The translations under genes were made by a program, and so were the position numbers. A DNA stretch of 64,000 nucleotides from Verrucomicrobia bacterium LW23 (GTDB lineage: Bacteria > Verrucomicrobiota > Verrucomicrobiia > Methylacidiphilales > UBA1321): contig QAZA01000012.1 of assembly GCA_003054695.1 (NCBI GenBank), forward strand, positions 62,001-126,000, in the 5' to 3' direction. Under the pieces are notes generated by a model that was not told the DNA's origin, did no database searches, and worked only from the letters and a program-made list of their open reading frames with translations. Positions 29,934 through 43,204 of this stretch are shown piece after piece. Each line of letters opens with the position of its first letter. Within the stretch, counting starts at the first letter, position 1.

Positions 29934-30044
29934 CCGCCTTAGCGGCTTTGTCCCCCTTAGCGTGAATAAATCAGCCTCTGCTGTCTGCTTGCACGTGCTG
30001 AAAAGGGGAAGGATTCGGAGTTTATCACGCGAAGGGGGACAAAG
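29934..30044. repeat. Nonamer-type palindrome P1
   Basis: The left arm (ccgccttagcggctttgtcc, then cccttagcgtga) pairs with the right arm (tcacgcgaaggggg, then acaaag). The arms read in roughly 9-bp steps ending aag or aaa. It lies just downstream of the orphan gp36-like gene, and P2 is its inverted homologue on the other side. Confidence 0.7.
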
Positions 30045-38381: not shown

Positions 38382-38429
38382 GGGGGTGGGACATCACATG
38401 TCCCACCCCCAAGGGACATACGATGTCCC
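38382..38429. repeat. Two GGGACAT hairpins after the portal gene
   Basis: The first has perfect 13-bp arms (gggggtgggacat and atgtcccaccccc) around cac (38382-38410). The second is gggacat-acg-atgtccc (38413-38429). They lie between the portal stop and the next start, in the position of an attenuator or processing site, but they belong to a dispersed family. Confidence 0.75.
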
Positions 38430-38461
38430 TGCCATCCATCCTCCGTCCATCCCCTCCCGCC

Positions 38462-38812
38462 ATGAACACCCCCTCCACCCTACCCGAACCCATCCGCCGC
38501 GCCCTCCCCGTCGTCTCGCCGCTGAGCGAAACGGCCCACCCCACCACCGACCCGGAGAGCCTCACCGGCGGCACCGTGTACCACGACATGACCCCCGCCG
38601 CCCGCGCCCTCATTCTGCTGACGCGCGTGCTTTACGTGCTGGGCCTGGCCTCCACCTACGGCGCCACCTGGGCTGGCATGCTGCCCGCCTCCTGGCGCCC
38701 GCTGGCCGCCTTTGCTCTGGCCCTTTTGCCTGCTCTGGAGTGGCTCATCCGCGTCGTCTGCGACTGGCTGGACAACGGAGCCATGGACCACAGCTACCCC
38801 GCCAAATCCTGA
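38462..38812 (+). CDS. Small phage membrane protein, holin candidate
   Basis: The 116-residue product has a Pro/Thr-rich N-terminus and two membrane helices (ALILLTRVLYVLGLASTYG, then LAAFALALLPALEWLI). Its size, helix count and position directly before the lysozyme gene suit a holin, but sequence gives no family. I chose ATG 38462 because the earlier ATG (38423) lies inside a GGGACAT hairpin. It is 21 bp from the lysozyme start. Confidence 0.55.
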   Translation: MNTPSTLPEPIRRALPVVSPLSETAHPTTDPESLTGGTVYHDMTPAARALILLTRVLYVLGLASTYGATWAGMLPASWRPLAAFALALLPALEWLIRVVCDWLDNGAMDHSYPAKS

Positions 38813-38833
38813 GCCCTCTCCCTCAACGCTATC

Positions 38834-39613
38834 ATGCCCACCACCCAACCGCTTCCCAATACCCTTACGCCGCGCCAAACCGATCTGCTCATCCGCGCCG
38901 CGCAGTCCCACCTTCGCGCGCTCGGCTACCCCCTCGGCGCCACCGGGCCGCACCGCGATGGCGTCGACGGCGACATCGCGCGCGGCACCCTTACCCTCGA
39001 CGCCCTGCGTCAGTGGGGCGACCAGTTATTTCCCGAGACAGCCGCGCCGCTGCCCGAGCGCGGCTCACTGGCCCACTACCAGCTGCTGTACGACACGATG
39101 CGCATCACCGGCCCCGCGGCGGAAATCGACGCCGTGGTGCGCCGCGCCCGCTCCGGACGGCCGCGCTACCAGGCCGTAGCCGAGCAAACCGGTGTGCCCT
39201 GGCATGTCATCGCCACACTGCACGCGCTGGAAAGCGACGGTTCCTTCGCCCATCACCTGCACAACGGCGATCCCCTTACCGCCCGCACCCGCCGCGTCCC
39301 CGCCGGTCGCCCCCCGGAGGGCAAGCCCCCCTTTACGTGGGAGCAAAGCGCCCGCGACGCCCTGACCCACGACGGCCTGGCCGGCCTGAGCCCCGCCGCA
39401 TGGACCATCCCCGCCACCCTGCGCCGCCTGGAGCTCTTCAACGGCCCCGGCTATCTGCGCCGCAACACGGCCAGCCCTTATCTCTGGAGCATGACGAGCC
39501 ACTACACGCGGGGCAAATTTGTACGCGACGGCGTGTACGACGCAACCGCCATCAGCCGGCAGGTCGGCGCTGCGGTGCTACTGCAACGCCTTCAGGACAA
39601 GGAGGTTGCATGA
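38834..39613 (+). CDS. Phage lysozyme-family peptidoglycan hydrolase (ZliS-like)
   Basis: The 259-residue product has an N-terminal peptidoglycan-binding-like segment (TDLLIRAAQSHLRALGYPLG, then DGVDGDIARGTL). The C-terminal half matches my memory of the COG3926 lysozyme family: VIATLHALESDGSFAHHLHN, then GDPLTARTRRVPAGRP. The Glu in HALESDGSF is the probable catalytic acid. As an endolysin it would cleave the cell wall at phage release. The stop overlaps the next start (ATGA). Confidence 0.72.
   Translation: MPTTQPLPNTLTPRQTDLLIRAAQSHLRALGYPLGATGPHRDGVDGDIARGTLTLDALRQWGDQLFPETAAPLPERGSLAHYQLLYDTMRITGPAAEIDAVVRRARSGRPRYQAVAEQTGVPWHVIATLHALESDGSFAHHLHNGDPLTARTRRVPAGRPPEGKPPFTWEQSARDALTHDGLAGLSPAAWTIPATLRRLELFNGPGYLRRNTASPYLWSMTSHYTRGKFVRDGVYDATAISRQVGAAVLLQRLQDKEVA
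39599..39605 (+). promoter_or_regulatory. Strong ribosome-binding site
   Basis: AAGGAGG lies 4 bp before the ATG at 39610. Strong Shine-Dalgarno sites are rare in this window, so it supports the 39610 start. Confidence 0.7.
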
Positions 39614-39936
39614 GAGACGCACCGACTTGCAACGAGATCCTGGCCGAAGTGCGCCGCCGCGCCATGGAGATGGTGCGCGATCACGATACTGATGCCGTCA
39701 AGGTCAAGGCCATCGTCAGCATTGTCCAAAAGGAGCGAGACCAGGACTTTGCGCGCCACCGCTTTGAGCACGACGCCGCCCAAGCCGCCCTGCGCGAGGC
39801 CGCCCGCCTGCAGGCCATCCAGAACGATCCCGCCCTGGCCACCGACGAAGCCCGAATCACCGCCGCGCGCCGGGTGCTGTTTGGCGAACTGCCTGACGAG
39901 GCTACCCTTCCGGACGTCACGGAAAGCAATGATTAA
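39610..39936 (+). CDS. Terminase small-subunit candidate
   Basis: The 108-residue product is almost all helical and charged (EILAEVRRRAMEMVRDHDTD, AIVSIVQKERDQDFARHRF, AALREAARLQAIQNDP). It overlaps the lysozyme stop by 4 bp and the terminase large-subunit start by 8 bp. That position is where the small subunit normally lies. No helix-turn-helix motif is clear, so the role is inferred from context alone. Confidence 0.6.
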   Translation: MRDAPTCNEILAEVRRRAMEMVRDHDTDAVKVKAIVSIVQKERDQDFARHRFEHDAAQAALREAARLQAIQNDPALATDEARITAARRVLFGELPDEATLPDVTESND

Positions 39937-41533
39937 CAAGCACTTACCTGCCCACATGAAATCGGACGACCCGCCCCTTCCCCAACCCCTGCAAGCCCAC
40001 CCCCAGGCCGCATCCGGTGCCATCCGGATGCGGCCTTTTCAGCGTGATGTTTTCCTCGATCGCACGACCGGAGTGCTGGTGCTGCACTGGTCGCGGCAAA
40101 TCGGCAAGTCCTACGTGCTGGCCGCCTGGGCGGTCGATCGGCTCCTGTCGCGGCCCGGCAGGCTGGTTACTGTGCTCTCCAACAGCCGCGACAATGGGGC
40201 CGAGTTTGTGCGTAAATGTGCGGAAGTCTGTGAGTTGCTGGGCGCCGGCGCCCGCGTCGATGTCGTCGACGCCACCCCTGCCGCGCCCGACCGCCCCGCG
40301 CACATTGAGTACGAAAACATGCGCATGGAAGTGCGCATTACGCTGGCCGGGCGCACGGGCCGGATCAAAGTACTCGCCGCCAATCCGCGCACGGCGCGAG
40401 GGTTCAGCGGCGACCTGATCCTCGACGAGTTCGCATTTCACGAAAACAGCTGGGCCATCTGGGACGCTGCCGAGCCGATCCTCGCGTCCAATCGCGATTA
40501 CCTCTGCCGCATCGCCAGCACCGGCAACGGCCGGCACAACGCGTTCTACGCGTTTGCTACCGGCGGCCAGTATCGCGTCAGCCGCGTCACCCGCACCCAG
40601 GCCTGGGAGCTGGGCGTGGAGATCTTTGATCCCGTAACCCGCCGCCCCGTTACCCCCGCCGAGGCACGGCGCGTGGCGCTCGACAAAGCCTCGTACGACC
40701 AGAACTACGAGTGCGCCTTCCGCAACGAAAGCAGCGCGCTTCTCACCACCGCGCTCATCACCGCCGCCGAGGCGGCCGGCGAGGGCGAAGGGGAAATCTG
40801 CTCGCAGGACTGGACGGCCGCCGCCCTGCAACGCCTGTGGGAGGCCGCCGGCCCCCTCTACGGCGGCTTTGACGTGGCGCGGCGCCGGGATTTCTCCGTG
40901 CTGAGTCTCTTTGAACGCGTGGAAGCGCCAGGACAGAGACATAAGATGTCCCAGGGACACGCTATGTCCCACCCCCATGCAGCCGGCCCCACCTACATCC
41001 TGCGCGCCTGTCTGCGAATGGAAAACATGCGGTTGCCTGAGCAGCAGGTGCGCCTGGGACAAGTCATGTCCCTGCCCGGTCTCCGGCGCGTCTGTATTGA
41101 CATGACCGGCCTTGGCCTGGGCCTGTGTGAGTACAGTCGCGAGCAGTACGGTCCGCGCATCCAGGGCGTCGATTTCGGCCGCACCATCCCCATCGCCGGC
41201 GCCCCGGCCATCGCAGCCGAAGGCCGCCGCGCGCCCACCGTGCGCGTTACGGAGGCCATGGCCACGCAGCTCCTGCAAATCTACGAGGCGGGCCGCATCC
41301 GCCACCCGTGGGACGCCCTGCTGCACGAGGACCTGCACAAGCCGGAGAAAATCGTGACGCCAGGCGGCCGCGTCAGCATCGCCGCAACCCGCACCGAGGC
41401 CGGCCACGCCGACCACTTCTGGAGCTTCGCCCTGGCCATCGAAGCCGCCGAATCCCCCGGCGCCAACGCCACCGAGTTCCACTACCAGCCCGTTGCCGTC
41501 TCGCGCCGCTTCTCAAGGCGGCGGACAATGTAA
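39929..41533 (+). CDS. Mu gp28-like terminase large subunit
   Basis: The DNA-packaging ATPase and nuclease, 534 residues. Walker A is SRQIGKS (55-61) and Walker B is DLILDE (162-167). The nuclease acidic clusters lie in FDVARRRDFS and CIDMTGLGLG, with DHFWSFALA at the end. Residues about 332-351 read EAPGQRHKMSQGHAMSHPHA and VRLGQVMSLPGL (about 374-385). These are translations of GGGACAT hairpins inside the gene and are not typical of the family, so the protein may have been altered by insertion. The ATG at 39929 overlaps the previous gene; 39956 is an alternative. Confidence 0.85.
   Translation: MINKHLPAHMKSDDPPLPQPLQAHPQAASGAIRMRPFQRDVFLDRTTGVLVLHWSRQIGKSYVLAAWAVDRLLSRPGRLVTVLSNSRDNGAEFVRKCAEVCELLGAGARVDVVDATPAAPDRPAHIEYENMRMEVRITLAGRTGRIKVLAANPRTARGFSGDLILDEFAFHENSWAIWDAAEPILASNRDYLCRIASTGNGRHNAFYAFATGGQYRVSRVTRTQAWELGVEIFDPVTRRPVTPAEARRVALDKASYDQNYECAFRNESSALLTTALITAAEAAGEGEGEICSQDWTAAALQRLWEAAGPLYGGFDVARRRDFSVLSLFERVEAPGQRHKMSQGHAMSHPHAAGPTYILRACLRMENMRLPEQQVRLGQVMSLPGLRRVCIDMTGLGLGLCEYSREQYGPRIQGVDFGRTIPIAGAPAIAAEGRRAPTVRVTEAMATQLLQIYEAGRIRHPWDALLHEDLHKPEKIVTPGGRVSIAATRTEAGHADHFWSFALAIEAAESPGANATEFHYQPVAVSRRFSRRRTM
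40936..40970. repeat. GGGACAT hairpins inside the terminase gene (pair)
   Basis: gagacat-aag-atgtccc (40936-40952) and gggacac-gct-atgtccc (40954-40970) sit back to back in the coding sequence without a frameshift. Compare the hairpin copies near 38.4, 41.55 and 42.15 kb. Confidence 0.7.
41056..41072. repeat. GGGACAT hairpin inside the terminase gene
   Basis: gggacaa-gtc-atgtccc, a third in-frame copy of the hairpin within the terminase coding region. Confidence 0.65.
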
Positions 41534-41549
41534 GCCCTCCAAGCAGCGC

Positions 41550-41576
41550 TACCAGGGACATAACATGTCCCTGGTA
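41550..41576. repeat. GGGACAT hairpin, left of cargo gene
   Basis: taccagggacat-aac-atgtccctggta, a perfect 12-bp-arm hairpin between the terminase stop (41533) and the stop of the minus-strand gene (41592). A further half site, atgtccc, follows at about 41583. Confidence 0.8.
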
Positions 41577-41591
41577 CACAAAATGTCCCTC

Positions 41592-42083
41592 TCACGTGTA
41601 ATTCCAGCTCTCACGCAACTTGCGATTGTTCATTTGCCCTCGCTGGCAAACGACACATCCGCACGGCTTAAAGCCGTGGGAACCAGGGAAATAGCGCCAC
41701 CCAACAACCTGTGGTGGCGTAAAAAATCTGTGGATCTCTTTCCTCAAAATGGCGCGGGGAATTATTACCTCAAACCCATGGGGATTCGCATCCTCCAAAA
41801 AAGTTCGCACCGATTCTGCGGCGGACATTTTGACGTGCTCCAGGTTGTAACGCCCGAACTCGACCTCCTGACTATCGTCGATCCGGAACTGGACGGCCGT
41901 GAAAATCTTGGTGCCGTTTCGACGCAACTCCCTCACCCACTGATACGTGTAGTAGAAGTGAGGCGTAACCGGCACAGCGAAAACACCCTGGTGGGCCCTC
42001 CAGTTCACTTTGCCTGGTTTGATCCCGTTTTTGCGGATCATGGCGAGATTCCTGGCATCGCAAAGATGGATGAATGAAGCCAT
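41592..42083 (-). CDS. Unknown protein, possible ADP-ribosyltransferase-type fold
   Basis: The 163-residue product is oppositely oriented to the terminase and sits between two GGGACAT hairpins. It opens MASFIHLCDARNLAMIRKNG, then GVFAVPVTPHFYYTYQWV and TAVQFRIDDSQEVEFGRYN. Next come GFEVIIPRAILRKEIHRFF and a Cys-rich end (KPCGCVVCQRG). The N-terminal His followed by an I..NGI turn and GVF recalls ART-fold proteins such as DarT, but this is a weak resemblance and I cannot name a family. I chose ATG 42083 because the frame upstream enters the hairpin at 42141-42179. A cargo (moron) gene is a reasonable guess. Confidence 0.65.
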   Translation of the reverse strand: MASFIHLCDARNLAMIRKNGIKPGKVNWRAHQGVFAVPVTPHFYYTYQWVRELRRNGTKIFTAVQFRIDDSQEVEFGRYNLEHVKMSAAESVRTFLEDANPHGFEVIIPRAILRKEIHRFFTPPQVVGWRYFPGSHGFKPCGCVVCQRGQMNNRKLRESWNYT

Positions 42084-42140
42084 AGTGCCCGGTAAGTTCC
42101 TCAACGACTGTGCAACAGACTGGCACAATACACACGCAAA

Positions 42141-42179
42141 ATCTCCTGCCAGGGACATTACGTGTTCCCGGCAGGAGAT
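42141..42179. repeat. GGGACAT hairpin, right of cargo gene
   Basis: atctcctgccagggacat-tac-gtgttcccggcaggagat. The outer 10 bp are perfectly complementary, and the inner core deviates from the consensus only by wobble pairs and one mismatch. Confidence 0.75.
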
Positions 42180-42211: not shown

Positions 42212-43204
42212 TTAGCTTACCGTAAACTTGCGGATGCCGATGCTGCTGGTCACCACGATATGGCTGTAGTGCTCCACCGTAAGGGCAATGCGCTTGGCGT
42301 CCAGCTGCTGCTCGTACACCCGCGTGCGGGTGCCGGCAAGGGTGGGGCTGACGAAGCGCTTGATGTGGCTGGCGTCCTCGGTGGTGGCGTTGTCCAGGGC
42401 GTAGAACATCAGGACCAGGTTGTTGACGATCTGCGACTTGGAGCTGGCGCCGGACTGCCAGCGCTCGCGCGAAACATGGACGCCTTCGACGCCCAGCAGC
42501 GCGGCCACGGCCTCGGGCGAAAGCGCTGCGCTGCCGTAAGCGCCGGCGTTGTTCTGGGCACGGTGGCTCAGCGCGCGCTTCTGCCAGGCGGTGTCGCCGA
42601 ACAGCACGCGGTTGGGGCGAACGCCGGTGGCGTCGGTGGCGGTCACCAGCTCGGCGATGACGTCCATGTCAGGGTCCTTGCCGGTGGTGGTGTCCCATGT
42701 TTTGGCGGTGTTGACGGCGGCGGCGGCGAGGGCGTCGACGGCGCGGCGCAAGTCGTTGCGGTAGAGGCGCTGGAGCAGGCGGCCGGTGTAGAGGTTGCGC
42801 CAGTCCGCACTGGCGGCGGGCACGTTGTCCAGGTCAACGACGATGGTAAGTCCCTTGTTATGAGTCTTTTCCATCACCGAGTCGCCGGTGTACTCCACCG
42901 TTTTAAAGGAGGCGTGTGCGGCGCGCAGGTCGTCCGTCTCGCTGAGGAAGGCCTCCGCGTTGTTGTGGGTTTTGTACTCAAACCGGCGGTTTACCTCCAC
43001 CGCGGGGGCGATGAAGTTGAGCGTCTGCTCGACGCCGGAGGGATCGCGCCAGCCGGCCGTGTACGTCGTAAGCGGCTCGCTGTAAAAGCTTTCCGCAAAA
43101 CGCGACTCGTTGGAGGCGTGGATGACATTGGGCGGGAGAAAGCCGCCGTTGTCCACCGGCATGGCGGCGGCAGAGGTTGCGATATTGGTCAGGGAAGTCG
43201 TCAT
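42212..43204 (-). CDS. Phage major capsid protein (Mu gp34-like)
   Basis: The 330-residue product is the size of a HK97-fold capsid subunit. FESFYSEPLTTY-like AESFYSEPLTTYTAGW, FEYKTHNNAEAFLSETDDLR, GLTIVVDLDNVPAASADWR and RPNRVLFGDTAWQKRALS are typical of Mu gpT-like capsids. The ending HIVVTSSIGIRKFTVS is conserved in position. I chose ATG 43204 (MTTSLTN) over 43246. It is last in the minus-strand run, after the decoration and protease genes. Confidence 0.82.
   Translation of the reverse strand: MTTSLTNIATSAAAMPVDNGGFLPPNVIHASNESRFAESFYSEPLTTYTAGWRDPSGVEQTLNFIAPAVEVNRRFEYKTHNNAEAFLSETDDLRAAHASFKTVEYTGDSVMEKTHNKGLTIVVDLDNVPAASADWRNLYTGRLLQRLYRNDLRRAVDALAAAAVNTAKTWDTTTGKDPDMDVIAELVTATDATGVRPNRVLFGDTAWQKRALSHRAQNNAGAYGSAALSPEAVAALLGVEGVHVSRERWQSGASSKSQIVNNLVLMFYALDNATTEDASHIKRFVSPTLAGTRTRVYEQQLDAKRIALTVEHYSHIVVTSSIGIRKFTVS

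Follow-up and report, generated by a model that had tools for sequence, protein, structure and literature searches.

A short, frame-neutral palindrome dispersed within and between the genes of a verrucomicrobial draft genome

The window covers 64 kb of a draft genome of 6.61 Mb that is 95.4% complete. Its palindromes belong to a family that is repeated throughout this genome, has a private distribution, is inserted in most of the genes tested and shows a bias in reading frame. We consider it probable (about 0.7) that the family is a lineage-private dispersed palindrome of the REP/RPE kind, which would insert as DNA and be filtered by selection on the proteins it enters.

Palindromic units in the window and in the genome

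Scanning the window for GGGACATNNNATGTCCC-like units with at most two mismatches yielded eight units between positions 38388 and 42168, where 0.18 were expected and none of 100 shuffles reached eight, in line with the original prediction of at least seven copies within 3.8 kb. Two perfect intergenic units open the cluster, namely GGGACATCACATGTCCC at 38388..38404, which is framed by the extra arms gggggt (38382-38387) and accccc (38405-38410), and GGGACATACGATGTCCC at 38413..38429, 25 nt past the former. Three units reside in the gene for a Mu-like phage terminase large subunit (39956..41533, plus strand) and all of them lie in its reading frame, as had been foreseen: GAGACATAAGATGTCCC (40936..40952) and GGGACACGCTATGTCCC (40954..40970) form a tandem pair with an 18-nt period, and GGGACAAGTCATGTCCC follows at 41056..41072. 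The perfect unit GGGACATAACATGTCCC at 41555..41571 lies 3' of the terminase stop codon, has extra arms tacca/tggta and is followed 18 nt further on by the degenerate unit GGTACACAAAATGTCCC (41573..41589), while the last unit, the likewise degenerate and intergenic GGGACATTACGTGTTCC at 42152..42168 with outer arms at 42141-42150 and 42170-42179, sits at the 3' end of a minus-strand gene (42212-43204). An ORF of 188 aa, which ends in a C-terminal region bearing a CGCVVC motif and matches nothing in Pfam or NCBIfam, lies on the minus strand between two palindrome sites (41592-42158). An Rfam search of the window matched nothing apart from two tRNAs, and a promoter/terminator scan of it gave a count no higher than in shuffles.

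The whole genome contains 188 units with at most one mismatch on many contigs, 65 of them perfect, as compared to a single unit in the reversed control. This refutes the option that the core is confined to a phage module, and the cluster in the window is rather a locally dense part of a genome-wide family. The family was absent from 28 of 29 relatives, the remaining one having one stray site with one mismatch, and 387 other sampled genomes from the phylum yielded only two single perfect sites. The array pattern was not found in any of about 85,000 species scanned; the 18-base extended core occurred in these species as eight scattered single sites in genome contigs and in viral contigs as one single site, both near chance. 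The dispersed palindrome that the original prediction had envisaged is hence found genome-wide and missing from relatives, and judged from these sequence comparisons the family is apparently private to one genome among those searched and new as a sequence family.

The anatomy of the units was analyzed in a sample of about 559 kb, comprising the window and 40 stretches, 36 around perfect sites and four at Y1 transposase genes. It contains 130 elements, i.e. 97 single units, 25 doubles and 8 triples, in which neighbouring units are spaced by 18 nt in 38 of 41 cases and by 19 nt in the other three. The family consensus reads GCA-GGGACAT-NNN-ATGTCCC-TGC, with a unit of approximately 18 nt and one base between neighbouring units. 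Positions 3-6 and 12-15 (GACA/TGTC) hardly change, variation is found at 2/16 and 7/11, and the loop is almost unconstrained; as sites were picked by core similarity, the overall conservation of the core is partly given by construction, which does not apply to the unevenness among core positions. In three window copies the arms match over a longer distance (about 6, 5 and 10 bp), and for these the predicted pattern of outer arms that vary yet stay complementary holds. It does not hold for the family, since beyond the consensus GCA-core-TGC (past about 4 bp) the arms of the 130 elements pair as often as re-dealt arms, with four contiguous extra arms of at least 5 bp observed versus about 2.5 expected. 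Covariation was also absent from the core stem, in which the commonest changes fall on 2/16 and 7/11 and double changes at 2/16 occur in 0 of 97 single units. The results from stem and outer arms thus lend no support to a hairpin selected as a structure, which had been suggested initially. The two loops of a double are perfectly complementary in six cases versus 1.3 by chance (p = 0.0004), and hence inverted copying may be the origin of some doubles. Clonal subfamilies were not detected, as the variable columns of the copies resemble each other no more than shuffled columns do, which would be odd if the copying were recent.

The sampled DNA showed no further palindrome family of a similar type. 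It does contain another repeat, roughly 165 bp long and with inverted ends (AGACCAATTgTCGGAATAAACCGGTACATTGG...), which is present in three copies (L026:4746-4885, L033:16333-16472 and L043:15870-16009) and looks like a MITE. A word around CCTTAGCGGCTTTGTCCCCCTTAGCGTGA occurs five times, at window positions 29952 (plus strand) and 30758 (minus strand), at L006:2114 and 2165, where it forms a close inverted pair, and at L016:333.

Units inside genes and comparison with homologues

Genes were called with a simple, uncurated three-periodic Markov caller, which assigned a coding fraction of 0.76. Inside these called genes lie 63 of the 130 sampled elements, distributed over 33 different genes, and 29 of the 65 perfect sites. 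Measured against the coding fraction, genes are under-hit by the elements, as expected from selection against insertions. The in-gene elements strongly favor one reading phase (p = 5e-8), with 42 in phase 0 (read as GTxxVP), 15 in phase 2 (QGHxMS) and six in phase 1, and their tandem spacing is always 18 nt, all three 19-nt spacings being intergenic. The consensus is identical inside and outside genes and across all three phases, which argues for spread as DNA and not for selection of the peptide. Many of the element-bearing genes belong to DNA repair, including those for MutS, UvrA, MutY, a RecB-like and a DinG/Rad3-like helicase, although enrichment was not formally tested (genes at L019:9352-12375, L039:781-6912, L040:9410-10390, L014:4149-7742 and L034:4655-7366); hrpA and a rluA-family gene also carry elements.

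Comparison with homologues indicates where the palindromes have added residues. The tandem pair in the terminase falls into an insertion, about 21 residues long, which is missing from all 24 IMG/VR homologues (up to 67% identity), whereas the unit at 41056 aligns to the same homologues without a change in length, and the proposal that the terminase copies are insertions is thereby upheld for the pair at 40936-40970 and contradicted for the third copy. Compared with same-family relatives, which lack both segments, MutS has about 90 additional residues in a linker that holds three elements, and UvrA about 30 additional residues that hold a triple; the inserts in MutS or UvrA would read as GTSHVPGTRNVP-like peptides. 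In MutY, three units face an 18-residue gap in three of three relatives, and two units in a RecB-like helicase face a gap of 12-13 residues. Insertions were also found in PbpC, in RluA and at a second RecB-like helicase site, some being longer than the units; as inserts often exceed the units, the boundaries of the element are not fixed. The PbpC copy at L039:12295 is in place with no length change, and judging by the conservation of HrpA, the site with two mismatches at its residue 957 may belong to the native protein or have arisen by chance. By these alignments, most of the tested in-gene copies are insertions and at least two, including the third terminase copy, are not. That the palindrome enters genes in frame, as the original prediction held, agrees with the homologues that lack the segments in the terminase, MutS, UvrA, MutY, RecB-like, PbpC and RluA proteins.

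Search for a mobiliser and weighing of explanations

Since the palindromes were initially proposed to spread in a REP/RAYT- or IS200/605-like manner, the results on a mobiliser bear directly on classical REP/REPIN elements moved by a RAYT, or by a resident IS200-type TnpA acting in trans. No RAYT exceeded the NF047646 cut-off in the 95.4% complete draft (best score 28 bits versus 80). The genome has five Y1_Tnp matches, which would suit such an origin, but both Y1 proteins that were scanned belong to the IS200 type, no palindrome unit lies within 1.5 kb of a Y1 transposase gene, no palindromes at IS200/IS605 ends were found near the Y1 genes, and the relatives possess Y1 genes yet no palindromes. 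A GTAG tag is present at only two of 260 element ends; GCAG (73/260) and CCAG (51/260) are found instead, the left and right flanks being alike and independent, and no target-site duplication was detected at the elements. Neither the Y1 neighbourhoods nor the RAYT profile nor the Y1 protein scan yielded a mobiliser protein. REP families as described in PMC3733652 are indeed matched in size, in the presence of dimers and intragenic copies and in the spread over the whole genome, but against the missing RAYT, the near-absence of GTAG and the Y1 genes without adjoining palindromes we consider this origin improbable, and the spread originally proposed is not borne out. Three short contigs (L010, L025 and L029) hold diverged RHS/YD-repeat gene tails with a palindrome at the corresponding place and with differing loop and flanks. 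They were considered as a carrier element and rejected, as what has the palindrome in common here is a set of diverged tails of paralogous genes and not a transposon.

Alternatively, the units might be sites to which a dimeric protein binds, for example a nucleoid-associated protein or global regulator; such sites would be kept by selection and would mostly have originated by point mutation. Their profile resembles that of a recognition site, with GACA/TGTC nearly invariant, changes concentrated at 2/16 and 7/11, a free 3-nt centre and symmetrical flanks. The lack of clonal structure and the two copies that are in place also suit a selected recognition site, and we have for this reason retained the explanation, albeit as an unlikely one. 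It is at odds with the location of most tested in-gene copies in segments missing from relatives, with half of the sampled elements lying in coding sequence and with tandem arrays of strict 18-nt period. We assign a low chance to a self-spreading 18-nt dyad (a hexacodon) that a DNA-binding enzyme would insert or convert in 18-nt multiples, such that length keeps the frame and each copy is drawn independently from a recognition profile instead of being a clonal relative of the others. Uptake words of competence systems occur as inverted pairs after genes, and some of the palindromes indeed lie directly 3' of stop codons; a reading as DNA uptake words paired as hairpins is nevertheless very improbable and largely refuted by word counts, because the 261 GGGACAT words in about 570 kb lie mostly within palindromes with no clear excess of single words, about half of the copies are in genes and convergent spacers are not strongly preferred.

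For the lineage-private, REP/RPE-like palindrome that we favor, we propose that a trans-acting protein might recognize the dyad GACA-N5-TGTC and insert the unit as DNA. The unit would enter intergenic DNA and genes alike, either alone or two or three at a time with an 18-nt period. Copies that break a protein would be purged, while those in loops and linkers would persist as hexapeptide repeats of the form (GTxxVP)n or (QGHxMS)n. The latter could survive because 18 is a multiple of three and because every frame of the palindrome can be read through, except where the loop creates a stop codon.

Comparison with known palindromic elements

To our knowledge, in-frame coding palindromes have been documented in few lineages, chiefly Rickettsia and Wolbachia as well as some REP-rich genomes. 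The present family is an unusually short, frame-neutral unit found in many core genes (mutS, uvrA, mutY, recB-like, hrpA), and it is thereby well suited to studying by what route such elements can spread when no RAYT is involved and how proteins accommodate inserted hexapeptides.

The best functional parallel appears to be the Rickettsia palindromic elements (RPEs; Ogata et al. 2000, 2002), which, as described in PMC10969869, occur both in intergenic DNA and, in frame, within protein genes that are unrelated to one another, the first-described family measuring about 150 bp. Compared by description only, both systems share in-frame palindromes in protein genes that are missing from homologues and intergenic copies, but the unit described here has approximately 18 nt instead of about 150 bp, occurs in tandem multiples and belongs to an unrelated lineage. 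CGTC-tagged REPs, among them RPE-4 and RPE-6, are described in PMC3733652 as short palindromes that lie within genes and have no transposase associated with them. Our family resembles them in both respects and differs from this description in that a terminal CGTC/TGTC tag is present at 0 of 260 ends and in its loop of 3 nt in place of 4-5 nt.

The many dispersed palindromes of 20-40 nt occurring as singles and dimers, which are typical for REP/REPIN elements, were found here, whereas a one-ended GTAG/GYAG-like tag and a cognate RAYT flanked by repeats were not. For GTAG REPs, PMC3733652 names Opitutus terrae as the species with the most intragenic copies, which are found in both uvrA genes, DNA ligase and RNA helicases among others, and lists recBCD and pseudouridine synthase genes for intragenic copies elsewhere. 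With these REPs, our family shares the short palindromes, their arrangement as singles, dimers and groups and the intragenic copies, and its gene list (uvrA, mutS, mutY, recB-like, hrpA, DinG/Rad3-like and rluA-family) seems strikingly similar to the genes named there for O. terrae and elsewhere. It departs from the GTAG REPs described there by GTAG at only 2/260 ends, by tag-like flanks on both sides and by the lack of a RAYT over the cut-off. The O. terrae precedent lowers the novelty of our family to that of a differently tagged, frame-neutral version of a known type. By analogy, its closest precedents would be the Rickettsia palindromic elements together with the intragenic REPs of Opitutus terrae.
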